Source: Candidatus Saccharimonadota bacterium
GTDB lineage: Bacteria; Patescibacteriota; Saccharimonadia; Saccharimonadales; JACQNP01
DNA length: 42,076 nt
Reading direction: 5' to 3'
NCBI GenBank assembly: GCA_020428005.1
Contig: JAGQNP010000004.1
Coordinates: forward strand, 1-42,076
The position numbers and the translations under genes were made by a program. Under the pieces are notes generated by a model. It ran no database searches. It had not been told where the DNA came from and was given only the letters and a program-made list of their open reading frames with translations. Each line of letters opens with the position of its first letter. The stretch's first letter is position 1. Of the stretch, positions 504 to 39,263 are shown piece by piece.

Positions 504-1791
504 TAAATCCCTTCGGCAATGCAGATTTAAATACTGTACGTTTCCTATTTGGTAATGTTATCTCTAGCTCCTTTGCATGCAAATACAGTCTGTCGGCACT
601 TTCTCCTCCATATAAACTATCACCAACTATAGGGCAACCTATATGTGATAAATGGACCCTAAGCTGATGTGTGCGTCCAGTTTTTGGCCTAAGTTCAACC
701 AACGCTCTATCATCATTTGAATTTAATAACTTGTATTCAGTAACTGCTTGTTTACCGTTTGTTCCTACCCGAAAAGTTTGCGGTCTTTTTGGGTTTCTTT
801 CTATAGGCATATCAATAACAGCTTGATCATGTTTTGGTGTTCTGCTCGTTACTGCAACATAGGTTTTTTTGACTCTTCTTGTAGAGAATTGCTTTTGCAA
901 CCAAGATAAGGCGTTGGAATTTTTTGCGCAAATAATAACACCACTAGTTCCTCTGTCCAATCGATGAACAATACCCCTTCTATTGCCATCACTTGGAAAG
1001 TTAATCTTATCGGCTATAAAACTTGCGACAGTTGCTTCGCTATTAAATACACCCTTGCTATGCGTTAATACTCCCGCGGGCTTGTCTATAACAATACAGT
1101 CACTATCCTCGTATATAATTGGCAGACTAATCTCTGGTGTCTCACTTAGATATTCTGCATCAAAGTCAACACTGATGACATCATTTTTACTAACGCGATA
1201 TTTCGCCTTTTCTTGTTTCCCATTTACTTGTACATATCCTAATTTAATTAATTTTTTGACCATACTACGATTCATCACTTCAAACTTCTGTGGCAAAAAA
1301 ACATCCAACCGTTTATCATGATCAATTTGATCAACTGTAAGCCAATTTAAACTATCCTTATACGCAATTTTTTTATAGTCCAAATATAGCATTAACATGT
1401 CAGAAAGATGCGTTTTTTTTGCAAGGTCTTCCAATTTCATATAGCCAAACTCAAGATGTTTATCATGCTCAAGATTCTTGACTTTACCTGTATAGCTAGT
1501 AACTTCGTATAGAACTAGACGAACCTTCACGAGTCTTTTCTCTCTGATATAGTCATGCGGGATGTCATAAATTTTCTCAAGTTTTGTTGTATTTATACCA
1601 AGTTCTTCGCGCATCTCACGTACTGTTGCTTCCTCAGCTGTTTCGCCATCCTCAGCTTTTCCAACAGGAAATGTCCAAAAATCCCACTTGACATGTTTAA
1701 AACACAAAATCTCATCATTACTATTTCTTAGAACCACACCAATTGCAATATGATCTTCGAGTTCACTTTTGTTATATGACTGAGTGCGCAT
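496..1791 (-). CDS. NUDIX hydrolase fused to RluA-family 23S rRNA/tRNA pseudouridine synthase
   Basis: This 431-residue protein has three parts. Residues about 13-140 are a NUDIX domain with a complete NUDIX box (G44, E50, R58-E59, E62-E63-L64-G65). Residues about 160-210 are an S4 RNA-binding domain. Residues about 225-425 are an RluA-type pseudouridine synthase with the catalytic motif HRLDRGTSG (Asp279) and the late motif KTGRTHQLRVHL. RluA enzymes convert uridine to pseudouridine in rRNA or tRNA, while NUDIX domains hydrolyse nucleoside diphosphate derivatives. Both halves keep their catalytic residues. No stop or frameshift separates them, so the fusion appears real. It starts one base inside the trpS stop (TAATG) and ends 8 nt inside holB. 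The RNA target and the NUDIX substrate cannot be read from the sequence. Confidence 0.9.
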   Translation of the reverse strand: MRTQSYNKSELEDHIAIGVVLRNSNDEILCFKHVKWDFWTFPVGKAEDGETAEEATVREMREELGINTTKLEKIYDIPHDYIREKRLVKVRLVLYEVTSYTGKVKNLEHDKHLEFGYMKLEDLAKKTHLSDMLMLYLDYKKIAYKDSLNWLTVDQIDHDKRLDVFLPQKFEVMNRSMVKKLIKLGYVQVNGKQEKAKYRVSKNDVISVDFDAEYLSETPEISLPIIYEDSDCIVIDKPAGVLTHSKGVFNSEATVASFIADKINFPSDGNRRGIVHRLDRGTSGVIICAKNSNALSWLQKQFSTRRVKKTYVAVTSRTPKHDQAVIDMPIERNPKRPQTFRVGTNGKQAVTEYKLLNSNDDRALVELRPKTGRTHQLRVHLSHIGCPIVGDSLYGGESADRLYLHAKELEITLPNRKRTVFKSALPKGFNG

Positions 1792-2822
1792 TAGCCCCTC
1801 AGGCCTACCGCTTTTTGTACCTTCGCAAGCGTAGTGTTCGCAACTTCATTCATGGCATTTTCAGAAGTTTCCAGTTTGGCCATCAACGCTGATTCGTCAA
1901 CATTTTTCAGCTTTGTTTGAAAATCGGCTAGGAACGCTTCAACTTCTTCGGCCACTTCTTTCTTTAGATCACCGTAACTTGCTTTATTCTTGTGGTGCTT
2001 TGCGACAGTTTCGAGACTTTCACCAGAAAATAAGGCATGAATTTGTAACAAATTGCTGATTCCGGGTTGCTTTTTGTAGTCCAAGTTAACACTGCTTAAA
2101 CTGTCTGTGGTTGCACTCATGATTTTCTTAGCGGCTGCTTTGGGATCATCGCCAAGGAATACAATGCCCCTCCCAGACTCATCAGATTTGCTCATTTTTT
2201 TTGTTGGGTCAACTAAGTCCTTAATGCGAAGCCCTTGATCCTTACCAAAGAATTTGTGCTGTTCTTTAACTGTCCTTGGCAACGTAAATAGTTCGCCAAA
2301 TTGATTATTGATCCTCATTCCCAGATCTCTAGTAATTTCAATGTGTTGCGACTGATCATCGCCTACTGGGACATATTCCGCACTATAGAGCAAAATATCT
2401 GCAGCCATTAGCACTGGATAGTCAAATAATCCAACGCTTACTCTATCGTCTCCAAGGGTTGCTGACTTATCTTTAAACTGCGTCATCCGGCTCATCTCAC
2501 CAAAACCCGTAAAACAATTGAGAATGAGTGTCAGTTCACTATGCGCAGATATAAAGCTTTGCCGGTATAAGTGCACGTCTGGATTATCCAGCGGCAAGCC
2601 AGCAGCTACAAACAGTTTCAGGTTATGCATTGTTTGTTCGTAAAGCTTGCTATGGTCAACTGGTGTGGTGAAACTATGTAAATCCGGCACAAACAAATTG
2701 ATCTGATATTTACCAGCATGTTTCTTTGCCATATCTATCAGGGGCAATAACGCACCAAAGTAGTTGCCGATATGCAAATCGTTATTCGCTCTTAATCCAG
2801 TTAAAATGACAGGTTTACTCAT
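1791..2822 (-). CDS. trpS: Tryptophanyl-tRNA synthetase
   Basis: Charges tRNA-Trp with tryptophan. At 343 residues it matches the usual class Ic TrpRS length. The HIGH-type signature is HIGN (near residue 17) and the KMSKS loop is intact (KMSKSDESGRG). The conserved GDDQSQHIEITRDL stretch is present as well. A GGAG Shine-Dalgarno lies 7 nt before the ATG. It follows the racemase gene with a 19-nt gap and overlaps the next gene by 1 nt. It lies downstream of a leader peptide with two Trp codons and a terminator (3553-3717), so its expression is probably tuned to Trp-tRNA charging. No T-box sequence was found. Confidence 0.96.
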   Translation of the reverse strand: MSKPVILTGLRANNDLHIGNYFGALLPLIDMAKKHAGKYQINLFVPDLHSFTTPVDHSKLYEQTMHNLKLFVAAGLPLDNPDVHLYRQSFISAHSELTLILNCFTGFGEMSRMTQFKDKSATLGDDRVSVGLFDYPVLMAADILLYSAEYVPVGDDQSQHIEITRDLGMRINNQFGELFTLPRTVKEQHKFFGKDQGLRIKDLVDPTKKMSKSDESGRGIVFLGDDPKAAAKKIMSATTDSLSSVNLDYKKQPGISNLLQIHALFSGESLETVAKHHKNKASYGDLKKEVAEEVEAFLADFQTKLKNVDESALMAKLETSENAMNEVANTTLAKVQKAVGLRG

Positions 2823-2841: not shown

Positions 2842-3531
2842 TTAATTCTTGTTGTGTTCATCAAGCATTGTCTCGCAAAGCACCTGTATACTATCCAGAA
2901 TGCGTGGATCCTTAATTTCTCCGAATGCGACAGGCAACTCAGTACAGCCAAGCAAAACAGCATCACAGCCATCTGCTAGCAGCTTTTGCACTATCTCATG
3001 CAACATTTGTTTATGGCTAATCGTCAAGTTGTCGGCAATAGTACTTCTTATGATTCTTTCCAATTTCGATAAATCATTGGTTTCTGGCAATACGCAAATA
3101 ACATCTGCTTGTTCGAAGCTATTCTGATACAACTTAGTTTTAATAGTTGTTGGACTTGCAAGCAGACCAATCTTTTTAATATTTCTATGTATGACTTGTG
3201 ACACTACTGCATCAATTAGTGAACGCATCCTAAGGTTTGGCAGTTTTTGATTAATCTCGTCGAACAATATATGGGCTGTATTGCATGCCATCATTGTTAT
3301 TGATGGGTTAAATACCGTTGCTTTATGGCCCTCATTTATAATTACTTCGAGAGCTACTTTTATATTGTTTGTGTTACTTATGAAATCCGGTATTGGCAGT
3401 GATAGTACAATTATCTCTGGAAATGAGACATCTGAACTGCTCATAGCCATGCGGACTAATCGTCTGTGAACTTCTGCCGAAGCCTGTGGTCCCATACCGC
3501 CAATCACAACTAGTGGATTGTTCTCTTTCAT
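2842..3531 (-). CDS. Aspartate/glutamate racemase family protein
   Basis: Cofactor-independent amino-acid racemase of the Asp/Glu family, 229 residues from the chosen start. Two catalytic cysteines sit in the expected motifs, MACNTAH in the first half and LLGCTELP in the second. The N-terminus VVIGGMGPQASAE is typical of the RacX/YgeA branch. The frame is open further up (to 3585), but an AAGGAG at 3541-3546, 9 nt before ATG 3531, picks this start. The longer version would also run through the terminator stem. It is the first structural gene of the Trp-attenuated operon ahead of trpS. The likely product is D-Asp or D-Glu, but specificity is not visible. Confidence 0.85.
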   Translation of the reverse strand: MKENNPLVVIGGMGPQASAEVHRRLVRMAMSSSDVSFPEIIVLSLPIPDFISNTNNIKVALEVIINEGHKATVFNPSITMMACNTAHILFDEINQKLPNLRMRSLIDAVVSQVIHRNIKKIGLLASPTTIKTKLYQNSFEQADVICVLPETNDLSKLERIIRSTIADNLTISHKQMLHEIVQKLLADGCDAVLLGCTELPVAFGEIKDPRILDSIQVLCETMLDEHNKN

Positions 3532-3552: not shown

Positions 3553-3578
3553 AAAATAACCGCCCTTGTGGCGGTTAT
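3553..3578 (-). terminator. Attenuator terminator hairpin of the racemase-trpS operon
   Basis: Minus-strand stem ATAACCGCC / GGCGGTTAT (9 bp) with loop ACAAG, followed by a short T-rich tract (TTTT then AAA). The CGCCAC segment in its 5' arm and loop (3568-3573) is complementary to GTGGCG in the leader peptide (3623-3628), giving a mutually exclusive antiterminator. The T tract is weaker than in the copy at 4846. Confidence 0.75.
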
Positions 3579-3603
3579 AATTCATTACATTTATATAAAT
3601 ATT

Positions 3604-3681
3604 TCACATACACTTAACAAAACGCCACGTAAATACGTTTCGCAGCCAATATAGAGATTTGCTTTCGTGAGTATTTTTCAT
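3604..3681 (-). CDS. Trp attenuator leader peptide (25 aa)
   Basis: A short ORF between the promoter at 3688 and the terminator at 3556. With the second of two tandem ATGs as start (3681) it has 25 codons and a TGA stop. Trp codons are at 12 and 19, with a Tyr before the first (SLYW) and Arg after the second (TWRF). There is no Shine-Dalgarno. The ATG lies at the predicted +1, so the transcript would be leaderless. Codons 18-20 contain GTGGCG, the proposed antiterminator strand. With Trp12 in the ribosomal A site, GTGGCG begins about 20 nt downstream and would be exposed. Positions W12, N15, W19 and R20 are identical in the leader at 4891. Classical attenuation is known for trp operons; its application here is inferred. 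Confidence 0.72.
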   Translation of the reverse strand: MKNTHESKSLYWLRNVFTWRFVKCM

Positions 3682-3687
3682 CATATT

Positions 3688-3717
3688 ATTATATCATACT
3701 TCTTATGCTTATGTCAA
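3688..3717 (-). promoter_or_regulatory. Promoter of racemase-trpS operon
   Basis: TTGACA (3712-3717), 18-bp spacer, TATAAT (3688-3693): both hexamers match the sigma-70 consensus. The -35 box is formed by the last codons of the DAHP synthase gene. The predicted start (7 nt after the -10) falls on the A of the leader-peptide ATG at 3681. Confidence 0.82.
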
Positions 3718-4827
3718 TAATCTGAGTGTTGCTCTAATTAATTTTCTTAGCTGATTACTATTCTCTATGTTTAATATAAGATTTGGGTCTGTCCTACCTG
3801 TTTCTGTGCCAACTTCACCCATTATTCCACGGATTTGCTCAGGATTCATTATTTCGCCTTTTCTAATTGCAACATGAAACTTTTTAAGAACGTGTAAAAA
3901 TCTCTGGGAACCCTTTTTATCAATATCAAACATTGGTGGCACGCTGTGGGTACCATCAATAAGTACTGCACATCCGACCTTACTCCCAAGCATACATATA
4001 TCAGAAAGATGTTTGATGGCTGCTTTTCTTTTTTCTTTCTTGCTAATGTCTCCTGGTAATTCGTAACCTCTCGCGATGATTCCGACTTGACTATTACCTT
4101 CTGAGACCAAAACAGGCTTCGTTGCGACACCCGGCGAATCAGGCTGCATAGCAAGTTGACCCAAAATTACACGAGAATTATCGTTCTTTTTTGAGTTAGC
4201 CCTAACTGTCTCAACGGCTTTCTCAACAATATTAACATCTCCCGTTCGCCCATTTTTAATCGCAACAGGTAGATGGTAAGCACTAAATTTGCCACGCAAG
4301 GCAGTTGACTCAACGTCACGTGCTCCAACCCATACACCACTCAAAAATGGCGCAAGTGCGCCAAGCTGTTCTGCTTCTGTAATTTCAGTTAGAATTGGGA
4401 TACCTCGTTCCGCAGCCTGTGTGTAAATATCAAAAAGCATCTTTACATCCTGCTCGCTGCCATAGAATAGTCCCGTCCAGCCAGTACCTGTCCTTGGCTT
4501 TGCGCCGTTACCTCTAAAAGCAATGACCGCATCTGGATGATCTGACTGAAGCTCCTGTATGTAATCAAACAACCCTGTGTAATCTGCGTCTGTATCTAAT
4601 GAACATGGCCCAAGCACAATCAGCTTCTTACTGGAAGCACCTGTAAAAATGTCACCAATCTCCTGGCGATTGTGATCACGAGCCGAAATTGCATTCTGAC
4701 TTAGTTCTGCTGTAACATTCTGTATTTTCAAAACTTCATCATCTGACAGTTGGGTTGCAACTGACCCTGCAGCAAGTGAGTCAAGCATCCAGTGATGTTC
4801 GAGTTGTGATTGTATTGATTCCTTCAT
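3709..4827 (-). CDS. aroG: 3-deoxy-7-phosphoheptulonate (DAHP) synthase, class I AroF/G/H type
   Basis: Condenses phosphoenolpyruvate and erythrose-4-phosphate, the committed step of the shikimate pathway. The 372-residue protein has LIVLGPCSLD (metal-ligand Cys), AKPRTGTGWTGLFYG (substrate Arg/Lys), AIKNGRTGDV (active-site Lys), IIARGYE, LIDGTHS (metal His) and a late GEVGTETGRTDPN segment in the AroG order. It is divergent but no expected active-site motif is missing. AGGAG lies 7 nt before ATG 4827. It is a single-gene unit between two promoters. An aromatic-rich leader peptide and a terminator lie directly upstream (4846-5009), so expression should rise when aromatic aminoacyl-tRNAs are scarce. 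No other shikimate or trp gene is in the window. The allele name (aroF/G/H) cannot be decided. Confidence 0.88.
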   Translation of the reverse strand: MKESIQSQLEHHWMLDSLAAGSVATQLSDDEVLKIQNVTAELSQNAISARDHNRQEIGDIFTGASSKKLIVLGPCSLDTDADYTGLFDYIQELQSDHPDAVIAFRGNGAKPRTGTGWTGLFYGSEQDVKMLFDIYTQAAERGIPILTEITEAEQLGALAPFLSGVWVGARDVESTALRGKFSAYHLPVAIKNGRTGDVNIVEKAVETVRANSKKNDNSRVILGQLAMQPDSPGVATKPVLVSEGNSQVGIIARGYELPGDISKKEKRKAAIKHLSDICMLGSKVGCAVLIDGTHSVPPMFDIDKKGSQRFLHVLKKFHVAIRKGEIMNPEQIRGIMGEVGTETGRTDPNLILNIENSNQLRKLIRATLRLLT

Positions 4828-4845: not shown

Positions 4846-4868
4846 AAAAAACCGCCCTTGTGGCGGTT
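4846..4868 (-). terminator. Attenuator terminator hairpin before DAHP synthase
   Basis: Minus strand: stem AACCGCC / GGCGGTT (7 bp), loop ACAAG, then six Ts. It is a good intrinsic terminator only about 20 nt before the DAHP synthase ATG. It would also stop read-through from the ribosomal-protein operon ending at rpsI. The core of stem and loop is identical to the hairpin at 3558-3576. CGCCAC (4860-4865) can instead pair with GTGGCG at 4913-4918. Confidence 0.85.
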
Positions 4869-4890
4869 ATTTGCTGATTTTATGAATTAT

Positions 4891-4971
4891 TTATTGATAA
4901 TTATAAGCAATGCGCCACTTTAGTGGGTTTGTAAACCAGAAATAAAAGTAATTCTGCGCTTTGACTTTCAT
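4891..4971 (-). CDS. Aromatic amino acid attenuator leader peptide (26 aa)
   Basis: A 26-codon ORF with nine aromatic codons: NYFYFWF at residues 7-13, Trp19 and YNY at 23-25. It lies between the promoter at 4981 and the terminator at 4868 and ends with TAA. The predicted transcription start is about 4 nt upstream of the ATG, with no ribosome binding site. Codons 18-20 (AAG TGG CGC) contain GTGGCG, which can pair with CGCCAC of the terminator. An upstream CCAC can pair with GTGG through a TAAA loop, giving the competing 1:2 hairpin. W12, N15, W19 and R20 match the Trp leader at 3604. The frame stays open upstream into rpsI, but that part is a shadow of rpsI. Confidence 0.78.
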   Translation of the reverse strand: MKVKAQNYFYFWFTNPLKWRIAYNYQ

Positions 4972-4980
4972 AACTCGATT

Positions 4981-5009
4981 AGAATACTTCCTTAGGTTGA
5001 TCTTGTCAA
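4981..5009 (-). promoter_or_regulatory. Promoter of DAHP synthase attenuator unit
   Basis: TTGACA (5004-5009), 17-bp spacer, TATTCT (4981-4986), beginning 5 nt after the rpsI stop. The predicted start is near 4974-4975, 3-4 nt before the leader-peptide ATG. Confidence 0.72.
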
Positions 5010-5014
5010 TAGTG

Positions 5015-5413
5015 TTAACGTTTCGTAAATTGGCGTTGTTTTCGGGCACCTTTGAGACCGAACTTCTTACGTTCTTTTTCACGCGGATCGCGACCAAGTA
5101 ATTCGGCTCGTCGTAATGTACCTTTATAGTCAACATTCAAGGCGGCAAGTGCCTTGGAAATACCGAGAGCTATAGCATCAACTTGACCAGCATGACCACC
5201 ACCACTAACAACGACAGAGACATCAAATTTATTCTCGATCTCTAAAACACGAAATGGTCTGTTAAGAGCGTTTGTCAGGTGACGACTTTTTTCAAGATAC
5301 TCTTCAGCTGGTTTGCCATTAATTGTAATATTTCCTTTTCCTGTCGAAAGCCGGACACGTGCTGTCGCACTTTTTCTTCGGCCAAGAGCATAGAAGTAGT
5401 TTTTATCAGCCAT
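5015..5413 (-). CDS. rpsI: 30S ribosomal protein S9
   Basis: 132 residues, full length. The N-terminus YFYALGRRKSATARVRL is the S9 signature. The basic C-terminus GARKQRQFTKR ends in the conserved Lys-Arg that reaches toward P-site tRNA. The start overlaps the rplM stop by 1 nt, the usual L13-S9 pair. It is the last gene of the long ribosomal-protein transcription unit; the next promoter starts directly after its stop. Confidence 0.97.
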   Translation of the reverse strand: MADKNYFYALGRRKSATARVRLSTGKGNITINGKPAEEYLEKSRHLTNALNRPFRVLEIENKFDVSVVVSGGGHAGQVDAIALGISKALAALNVDYKGTLRRAELLGRDPREKERKKFGLKGARKQRQFTKR

Positions 5414-38175: not shown

Positions 38176-38958
38176 TTATGCTTTGCTTCTGCGGATATCT
38201 TCTTTTATGACATCTATTAGCGATACCCCCTTTAATGTCATCCATACTTGTATGGCATACAGTAAATCAGCAGCTTCAGAAATAACCTCTTGCTTATTAG
38301 TGTCAGACCTTAGCAGTGCCTGTAATAGTTCGCCAAATTCTTCGCTCAGCTTTTTTACTAAGGCGTTCTGGGATCGCATTAAACCTAATGTATATGATGT
38401 TGCATCCATGCTCTCGATGTCATTGCGCCTCATTGACAAGACGCTTGCTACATCTAGCAAGCCATCGTATAACTTGTCTCCGGCTGATCTTTGATCATAC
38501 TCACAATAGTCAAGAACTTTTAGATCAAGCTTCCGACTCTCCAGATATATTTTAAGTCCATTCGCAGCAATTGTATCTCCGGTTGCCTTTATATCAAATA
38601 GCAGATCACACAGGCCCGAACTCACATATCCTTCACAGCCACCACTGACAAAAGTAGGCTGCAAGTCAACAAAGCTGCTACTTACCATTTTATTCATCAA
38701 AAACGGATAGCTTGTTGCAACCTTCATCGGCTTACCAAGCTTCATTTGTACTTGTGAAATACCTTCATCATCTGGTCCAGCAAGAATCATTGAACAATCT
38801 ATTGGTACACTGTCAATGACATTCGCACTTTTTATAGTGCCGCTTAGTGACAACTCAGCAAATTTATCTGAGCCTATAAATGCCAAGTCTCTTTGACCGT
38901 CGTTTAAAAGCCTCAGTCCTTCCTCATCCCTCACATATTGAAGCGCAACGTTACCCAC
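38176..38958 (-). CDS. hisG-hisE: ATP phosphoribosyltransferase (HisG, short form, catalytic C-terminal part) fused to phosphoribosyl-ATP pyrophosphatase (HisE)
   Basis: 260 residues in this frame, starting at a GTG. Residues about 1-150 match short-form HisG: YVRDEEGLRLLNDGQRDLAF followed by IGSDKFAE, then ATSYPFLMNKM, and the PRPP loop FDIKATGDTIAANGLK. Residues about 155-260 match HisE: ATSYTLGLM, KKLSEEFGELLQAL and SEAADLLYAIQVW, then GVSLIDVIKEDIRR. The HisG N-terminus lies in another frame just upstream (38951-39088). HisG-HisE fusion is unusual; HisI-HisE is the common arrangement. The first two histidine-biosynthesis steps would thus be on one chain. hisS follows 17 nt later. Confidence 0.8.
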   Translation of the reverse strand: MGNVALQYVRDEEGLRLLNDGQRDLAFIGSDKFAELSLSGTIKSANVIDSVPIDCSMILAGPDDEGISQVQMKLGKPMKVATSYPFLMNKMVSSSFVDLQPTFVSGGCEGYVSSGLCDLLFDIKATGDTIAANGLKIYLESRKLDLKVLDYCEYDQRSAGDKLYDGLLDVASVLSMRRNDIESMDATSYTLGLMRSQNALVKKLSEEFGELLQALLRSDTNKQEVISEAADLLYAIQVWMTLKGVSLIDVIKEDIRRSKA

Positions 38959-39088
38959 CTGCGAGGTGAAGACACCTCGCAGGCATCTCTGGCAACTCTA
39001 GGCCATTATCAATCATCCATGCTTCGGCAGCAGCACGGTTTTCACCCTTTGGCACAGCTATTGATTCTACGTTTTCAAAATAATTCAT
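38951..39088 (-). pseudogene. hisG: N-terminal fragment of hisG in a different frame
   Basis: A 45-codon ORF starting at ATG 39088. It contains ESIAVPKGENRAAAEAWMI and DNGLELPE, matching the HisG N-terminal strand-helix (IAVPKG...). It ends at TAA 38951 and overlaps the next frame by 8 nt. A single-base deletion, or a +1 shift near GGTGGGTAA, would join it to 38176-38958 with about the right length. It may be a mutation, a sequencing error at the adjacent palindrome, or programmed frameshifting. Confidence 0.68.
38958..38983. repeat. Perfect 11-bp inverted repeat at the hisG frameshift
   Basis: CCTGCGAGGTG, loop AAGA, CACCTCGCAGG. It is GC-rich in an AT-rich region and sits directly upstream of the point where hisG changes frame. 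It would form a very stable mRNA hairpin. Confidence 0.9.
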
Positions 39089-39123: not shown

Positions 39124-39149
39124 AAAAACGCCGGGGTGATCCGGCGTTT
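39124..39149 (-). terminator. His attenuator terminator
   Basis: Minus-strand stem AAACGCCGG / CCGGCGTTT (9 bp, 6-nt loop) with five Ts at the end. The 5' arm and loop (CCGGATCA, 39137-39144) are complementary to TGATCGGT at the end of the leader peptide gene. Confidence 0.9.
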
Positions 39150-39171: not shown

Positions 39172-39228
39172 CTAACCGATCAGCTCCGGCAATATATGGA
39201 TATGATGTTGGTTAGTTAAATAAATCAT
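39172..39228 (-). CDS. hisL: His attenuator leader peptide (18 aa)
   Basis: ORF encoding MIYLTNQHHIHILPELIG, three His codons in four (HHIH). ATG 39228 lies exactly 7 nt after the -10 box, so the transcript would be leaderless. No ribosome binding site. The last codons (CTG ATC GGT) carry TGATCGGT, which pairs with the 5' side of the terminator over 7 bp plus a one-base bulge. A ribosome stalled at the His codons would leave this free and prevent termination. Classical enterobacterial hisL has seven consecutive His; this is a shorter variant. hisL is used by analogy. Confidence 0.78.
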   Translation of the reverse strand: MIYLTNQHHIHILPELIG

Positions 39229-39234
39229 ATTTAT

Positions 39235-39263
39235 ATTTTAATACACCATCTTGCTTATGTCAA
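39235..39263 (-). promoter_or_regulatory. Promoter of the His attenuator unit
   Basis: TTGACA (39258-39263), 17-bp spacer, TAAAAT (39235-39240). The -35 box starts immediately after the CCA of the tRNA-Leu gene. Confidence 0.85.

Follow-up and report, generated by a model that had tools for sequence, protein, structure and literature searches.

A predicted aromatic leader-peptide attenuator before a DAHP synthase gene, and its recurrence at trpS operons across Saccharibacteria

Does the DAHP synthase gene that follows rpsI in a small Saccharibacteria genome lie under an attenuator that reads aromatic amino acids, and is DAHP synthase the gene to which such control belongs? Saccharibacteria are ultrasmall bacteria, many of them known parasites of other bacteria, and to our knowledge little of the gene regulation of Patescibacteria has been charted. 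The window analysed here is a stretch of 42,076 nt from a 1.05 Mb genome (100 contigs, 95.7 % complete); no other member of the genus or family of the source species was present among the 149 relatives searched. All window features below lie on the minus strand, where the gene order is rpsI, attenuator 1, aroG, attenuator 2, an Asp/Glu racemase gene, trpS and a pseudouridine synthase gene. The aroG gene (3709..4827) encodes a class I DAHP synthase of the AroG type (PF00793, 83.2 bits against a cut-off of 25.5) whose closest named relatives are from Candidatus Saccharibacteria MAGs. It is followed by the racemase family gene (2842..3531; PF01177) and by trpS, encoding tryptophanyl-tRNA synthetase (1791..2822), the gene that an attenuator accompanies across Saccharibacteria. 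The original prediction called DAHP synthase the committed aromatic step; to treat it as that step of a complete pathway here proved unsupported because chorismate synthase was undetected in the source genome; a chorismate-binding enzyme was likewise undetected in the same check of the pathway by three family searches. The source genome, G000 (C6:2586-3125, L161), keeps DAHP synthase and prephenate dehydratase and thus a gapped aromatic pathway, and no attenuator was visible at its prephenate dehydratase gene.

Attenuator 1 occupies the interval between rpsI and aroG. Its promoter comprises a -35 box TTGACA (5004..5009), which recurs at most homologous sites, and a -10 box TATTCT (4981..4986) located 9 nt ahead of the leader ATG, with a 17-nt spacer and 10 of 12 consensus matches. 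The leader ORF (4891..4971) encodes MKVKAQNYFYFWFTNPLKWRIAYNYQ followed by a stop codon, and nine of its 26 codons are aromatic, in the order Y F Y F W F W Y Y, with the conserved Trp codon at 4938-4936. As had been anticipated, the frame runs upstream into the rpsI shadow as an 81-aa ORF (4891-5136), the true leader start being 4971, past the rpsI stop (5015). Strand 1 (CCAC, 4923..4926), the putative anti-antiterminator, can pair with GTGG at 4918-4915 of strand 2 (GTGGCG, 4913..4918), which is the 5' strand of the antiterminator and begins 20 nt downstream of the first nucleotide of the Trp codon. Strand 3 (AACCGCCAC, 4860..4868) serves both as the 5' arm of the terminator and as the 3' strand of the antiterminator, its CGCCAC (4865-4860) being complementary to strand 2 (4918-4913). 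The intrinsic terminator (strands 3:4; 4846..4868) lies between leader and aroG and consists of the hairpin AACCGCC-ACAAG-GGCGGTT at 4868-4850 with a T6 tract at 4851-4846. Computed energies were about -11.5, -3.7 and -10.7 kcal/mol for the 2:3, 1:2 and 3:4 pairings, respectively. Promoter, aromatic leader, six-T terminator and both competing pairings named in the original prediction were thus all located. A covariance model (R2) was trained on ten attenuators whose loci do not have aroG or a DAHP synthase as first gene, one of its rows coming from a genome with a DAHP synthase operon elsewhere (L014). Attenuator 1 was its top match within the 42 kb of the window (28.1 bits, E 3e-5).

A second attenuator, absent from the original prediction, precedes the racemase and trpS genes. 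Its promoter, read from the sequence, is TTGACA, 18 nt, TATAAT (3688..3717), and its leader ORF (3604..3681) encodes MKNTHESKSLYWLRNVFTWRFVKCM and a stop codon. The distance from the Trp codon to GTGGCG of strand 2 is identical in the two attenuators, at 20 nt, and the second terminator (3553..3578) is a 25-nt near-copy of the first (96 %). Given the placement of this leader and terminator, the racemase likely starts at the ATG at 3531, which is equipped with AAGGAG, rather than at 3585.

An AroG of this type was found in only three further genomes among approximately 400 sampled from the order; a scan of genome contigs for AroG returned the same three relatives and no others, and none was found among viral contigs. 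In two of the three genomes (L002 and L003) the attenuator sits directly ahead of aroG. The L002 leader is MQQQNNPTYWFTQPRSVA, with the motif YWFT and an alternative start at an earlier ATG (MKYRTAMQQQ...), whilst the L003 leader is MKQLRSIQNWFFFTDTFIGGKFAVN, with the motif NWFFFT; strand 2 and terminator match in both. The leader frame, whose conservation had been put forward as the point on which the prediction should stand or fall, therefore recurs before aroG together with these elements. The third genome (L004), where aroG directly follows rpsI, might be taken as attenuator-free, a reading rejected because the model found an attenuator between aroG and trpS. As trpS lay downstream of aroG in all four genomes, the regions upstream of trpS were read in genomes lacking aroG. 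The same device was present there, in dozens of genomes, and it also precedes DAHP synthase genes of other types, such that conservation of the leader extends well beyond aroG.

A further covariance model (R1) was built from 17 sites, partly from loci found via trpS or DAHP synthase; normalising the loops beforehand tuned it to CCGCC/GGCGG terminators. At E≤0.1 it matched in 158 of 393 Saccharimonadales genomes, chance terminators included, and most of these order-wide matches fell outside the training set. We examined 82 sites, namely 64 picked by score from this search and 18 read earlier; those of the comparison genomes that carry names are metagenome-assembled. The downstream sequence contained trpS at 69 sites, other aromatic genes at four and nothing relevant at two, and was too short at the remaining seven. 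For the score-picked matches alone, 59 had enough downstream sequence, giving trpS at 53, other aromatic genes at four and neither at two. By our own estimate the chance of finding trpS within the right 4.5 kb and orientation is approximately 0.25 %; the association is nonetheless partly tied to the R1 training set and not wholly independent of it. The four other aromatic contexts were DAHPS-TyrA-PheA, DAHPS II-TrpE and, twice, PheA, and the two matches without a relevant gene look like chance. Three types of DAHP synthase occur behind the attenuator (AroG type, other PF00793 and class II PF01474), and attenuated operons also include TrpE, PheA, TyrA-like and aminotransferase genes, of which TrpE was confirmed by Pfam and the others were identified by reading their sequences. 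This pattern ties the device to the trpS operon across Saccharibacteria and suggests that this operon has received three DAHP synthase types, pheA, tyrA, trpE or small ORFs. Of the original proposal, an attenuator sensing aromatic amino acids for DAHP synthase, the attenuator is upheld, but its conserved partner is trpS, with DAHP synthase one of several insertions.

Several accessory features of these operons were also observed. In L132 (G028; PF01474) and in L089 (G184), which looks alike, the place of the class I enzyme in the operon is taken by a short class II DAHP synthase, which amounts to gene displacement under one attenuator. Diverse small ORFs (approximately 66-155 aa) lie between terminator and trpS in many genomes (L123, L126, L128, L028 and others), and none of the four tested had a Pfam match. 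At L122 (1529-1627; G119), the gene for a 212-aa protein with no Pfam match lies behind a Phe-only leader (HHFFFT) and is followed by a YWF attenuator ahead of DAHP synthase; this protein may have a role in Phe metabolism. Outside the order, R1 matches were almost all ordinary terminators. The exception was L149 (1474-1586), from G653, which belongs to a different class of the phylum. Its leader, MQISFNWWTTSLWR, contains WW and is accompanied by a matching strand 2 and terminator; downstream come a gene resembling tryptophan synthase beta and a trpS-like ORF.

Alignment of the leaders on Trp gave the consensus [Y/F]-W-F-T-D-T. At the conserved position W was present in 76 of 79 leaders, followed by F/Y in 74 and preceded by Y/F in 69, and the Trp was codon 10-12 in most leaders. 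In 15 of 17 training sites, strand 2 began 17-21 nt past the first nucleotide of the Trp codon. A promoter scoring at least 9/12 stood ahead of the leader ATG at 56 of 79 homologous sites, compared with approximately 1.4 % of random positions, a count that used the best-scoring in-frame ATG per site and so somewhat favours high scores. The distance from -10 box to ATG was 6-9 nt at 53 of these 56 sites, and the ATG usually had no Shine-Dalgarno sequence; given the short distance, the leader mRNAs are probably leaderless. Several sites lacking a promoter of this kind were internal second attenuators (e.g. in G005 and G083), and by eye a few internal second attenuators show a purine-rich ribosome-binding site instead.

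The pairing of the strands was assessed by script on anchored strands, using permutations that take no account of phylogeny. Pairing of strand 2 was stronger with the strand 3 of its own site (-15.5 kcal/mol) than when partners were swapped (-13.5 kcal/mol), a difference reached in 0 of 5000 permutations. Two positions lie in the loop of the terminator and have a partner in the antiterminator only; they were paired at 45 and 54 of 62 sites against expectations of 27 and 44; for each, 0 of 20,000 shuffles, again ignoring phylogeny, reached the observed pairing. Pair types at these covarying positions included G-C, T-A, C-G and others, and in G097 all three strands were altered jointly (GACGG/CCGTC/GACGG). 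Covariation, in a test blind to phylogeny, and energies thus support an antiterminator (2:3) that excludes the terminator (3:4), the latter being placed between leader and first structural gene in the window and at homologous sites alike. The 1:2 hairpin (CCAC/GTGG in the window) is readable in the ACCGACAC/GTGGCGGT consensus sites and weak or unclear at some others, e.g. L002. In computed folds with the ribosome at W12 and strand 4 not yet made, the free RNA formed the antiterminator (-12.5 kcal/mol). The same held for stalls from Y7 to F13 before strand 4, whilst the terminator resulted when the ribosome stood at W19 or at the stop codon. Stalls up to F10 left strand 1 unmasked, making W12 and F13 the masking stalls, which fits the conserved position of Trp. 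Even for a ribosome at W12, the terminator had greater stability than the antiterminator in the complete free RNA; antitermination therefore has to be kinetic, like that of other attenuators.

The sequence elements, their conservation and covariation and the association with particular genes make it very probable that attenuator 1 works by classical ribosome-mediated transcription attenuation, using an aromatic leader peptide; from them we infer transcription start, stalling, termination and derepression as follows. Transcription would start at, or a few nucleotides before, the leader ATG, and the leader ORF would be translated, probably from a leaderless mRNA, by a ribosome trailing RNA polymerase in putative coupling. 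When charged tRNA-Trp is scarce, or by extension tRNA-Phe or tRNA-Tyr, the ribosome would stall within Y-F-Y-F-W-F and cover strand 1, leaving GTGGCG of strand 2 to pair with CGCCAC of strand 3; the terminator would not form and aroG would be transcribed. With the tRNAs charged, the ribosome would advance over strand 2, the 3:4 terminator would form and transcription would end before aroG. The second copy of the device would place the racemase gene and trpS under the same control.

Which amino acids are sensed is less clear-cut. The original prediction spoke of aromatic sensor codons in general; the leader is indeed aromatic, but the conserved stall codon appears to be specifically Trp, with Tyr and Phe flanking it. 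The attenuator might then work by sensing Trp alone, nearby Tyr and Phe codons being incidental or serving the nascent peptide, a possibility that we regard as serious but somewhat improbable. The near-invariance of Trp (76/79) at a fixed distance to strand 2, the identity of the partner gene as trpS, a leader with only Trp codons directly before trpS (SWQKQKSW, in G024) and the WW leader before trpB-trpS in another Patescibacteria class all speak for it. Against it, the residues at -1 (Y/F, 69/79) and +1 (F/Y, 74/79) are nearly as conserved, and aromatic codons are more numerous in leaders whose operons include aromatic biosynthesis genes (4.4 versus 3.7, P 0.012). Moreover, Phe-only leaders occur before pheA, as in two attenuators with pheA as first gene (NFFAFT and FCFFFT); one genome (G286) combines the pheA leader NFFAFT with a DAHPS-trpS leader NYWFTDS. 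Trp-less leaders were associated with pheA (Fisher P 0.009), on small numbers: five W-less leaders, among which G022 counts solely because its Trp lies outside the counted residues.

Control by a trans-acting agent, such as a TRAP-like factor, a T-box tRNA or a riboswitch ligand, in place of a translating ribosome would also suit mutually exclusive leader hairpins, yet we consider it very unlikely. Rfam contained no matching family for the window element and gave weak, chance-level matches only: all families, including T-boxes and riboswitches, were below threshold, and Trp_leader (RF00513) and Phe_leader (RF01859) reached 15.2 and 17.4 bits against gathering thresholds of 41 and 55. In addition, what is conserved is an ORF in which the Trp codon holds a fixed place, and its codon identity follows the downstream gene; identity as a T-box or riboswitch was rejected for these reasons. 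Still less probable is that the hairpin merely terminates the upstream rpsI operon, with the aromatic ORF a product of chance or of the shadow frame. This reading could draw on the position of the element, between rpsI and aroG, on the frame continuing into rpsI and on CCGCC/GGCGG terminators being common, such terminators making up most model matches outside the order. A chance terminator is rejected, however, by the promoter between rpsI and the leader, by retention of leader, Trp position and strand 2 in dozens of genomes, some without rpsI upstream, and by covariation of the terminator-loop positions with the leader.

Leader-peptide attenuation by the ribosome, the reading preferred here, is a classical mechanism, and in E. 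coli trpL the Trp residues are at codons 10-11. Attenuator 1 resembles trpL and pheL of E. coli in its regulatory Trp or Phe codons, predicted mutually exclusive pairing of strands 1-4 and terminator before a biosynthetic gene, but differs in that Tyr, Trp and Phe codons adjoin, start sites appear leaderless and trpS or DAHP synthase is the partner. Attenuated aminoacyl-tRNA synthetase genes are also known in E. coli (pheST). In Corynebacterium glutamicum a Phe-Tyr-Phe leader, aroR, attenuates the DAHP synthase gene aroF (Neshat et al. 2014 via PMC11802643; PMC4046766). That system shares an aromatic-codon leader attenuating a DAHP synthase gene with ours, but belongs to another phylum; the quoted motif has no Trp and trpS is not described as belonging to the element. 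Attenuators of trpS have been predicted in some Streptomyces (PMC1262725). The device described here is like these and pheST in the classical attenuation of a synthetase gene; in contrast to its presence in only some Streptomyces, it occurs in many Saccharimonadales families and with aromatic biosynthesis genes in the same operon. We found no paper on attenuation in Patescibacteria in the open-access literature, most subscription journals lying outside it.

Conservation of the attenuator would imply coupling of transcription to translation in these reduced cells and a supply of aromatic amino acids that fluctuates enough to be worth sensing, with trpS as a main response. A wider reading, which we slightly favour, is that Saccharibacteria, and perhaps Patescibacteria, possess a family of leaderless-mRNA attenuators (YWF before trpS or DAHP synthase, Phe before pheA, WW before trpB-trpS in another class and His before hisG) that monitor host-derived amino acids via coupled transcription and translation, their stall codons retuned to the next gene. 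The near one-codon-each Tyr-Trp-Phe design, leaderless start and gene-tracking codons offer a test set for attenuator evolution. The motif also flags small ORFs and divergent DAHP synthases as aromatic metabolism, and the attenuator model is a ready annotation aid for many MAGs.

A third leader-type attenuator was observed in the window (39172-39263 and 39127-39148), upstream of a hisG-hisE fusion. The hisG frame opens at the ATG at 39088 and ends after 45 codons; from 38958 onwards HisG homology resumes in a different frame, so that the interval 38958-39088 seems to contain a frameshift or an assembly error. The promoter reads TTGACA-17-TAAAAT and is followed after 6 nt by the ATG of a leader, MIYLTNQHHIHILPELIG, with three His codons (HHIH). 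The terminator is formed by AACGCCGG-ATCACC-CCGGCGTT, and a TGATCGG strand is able to pair with CCGGATCA.
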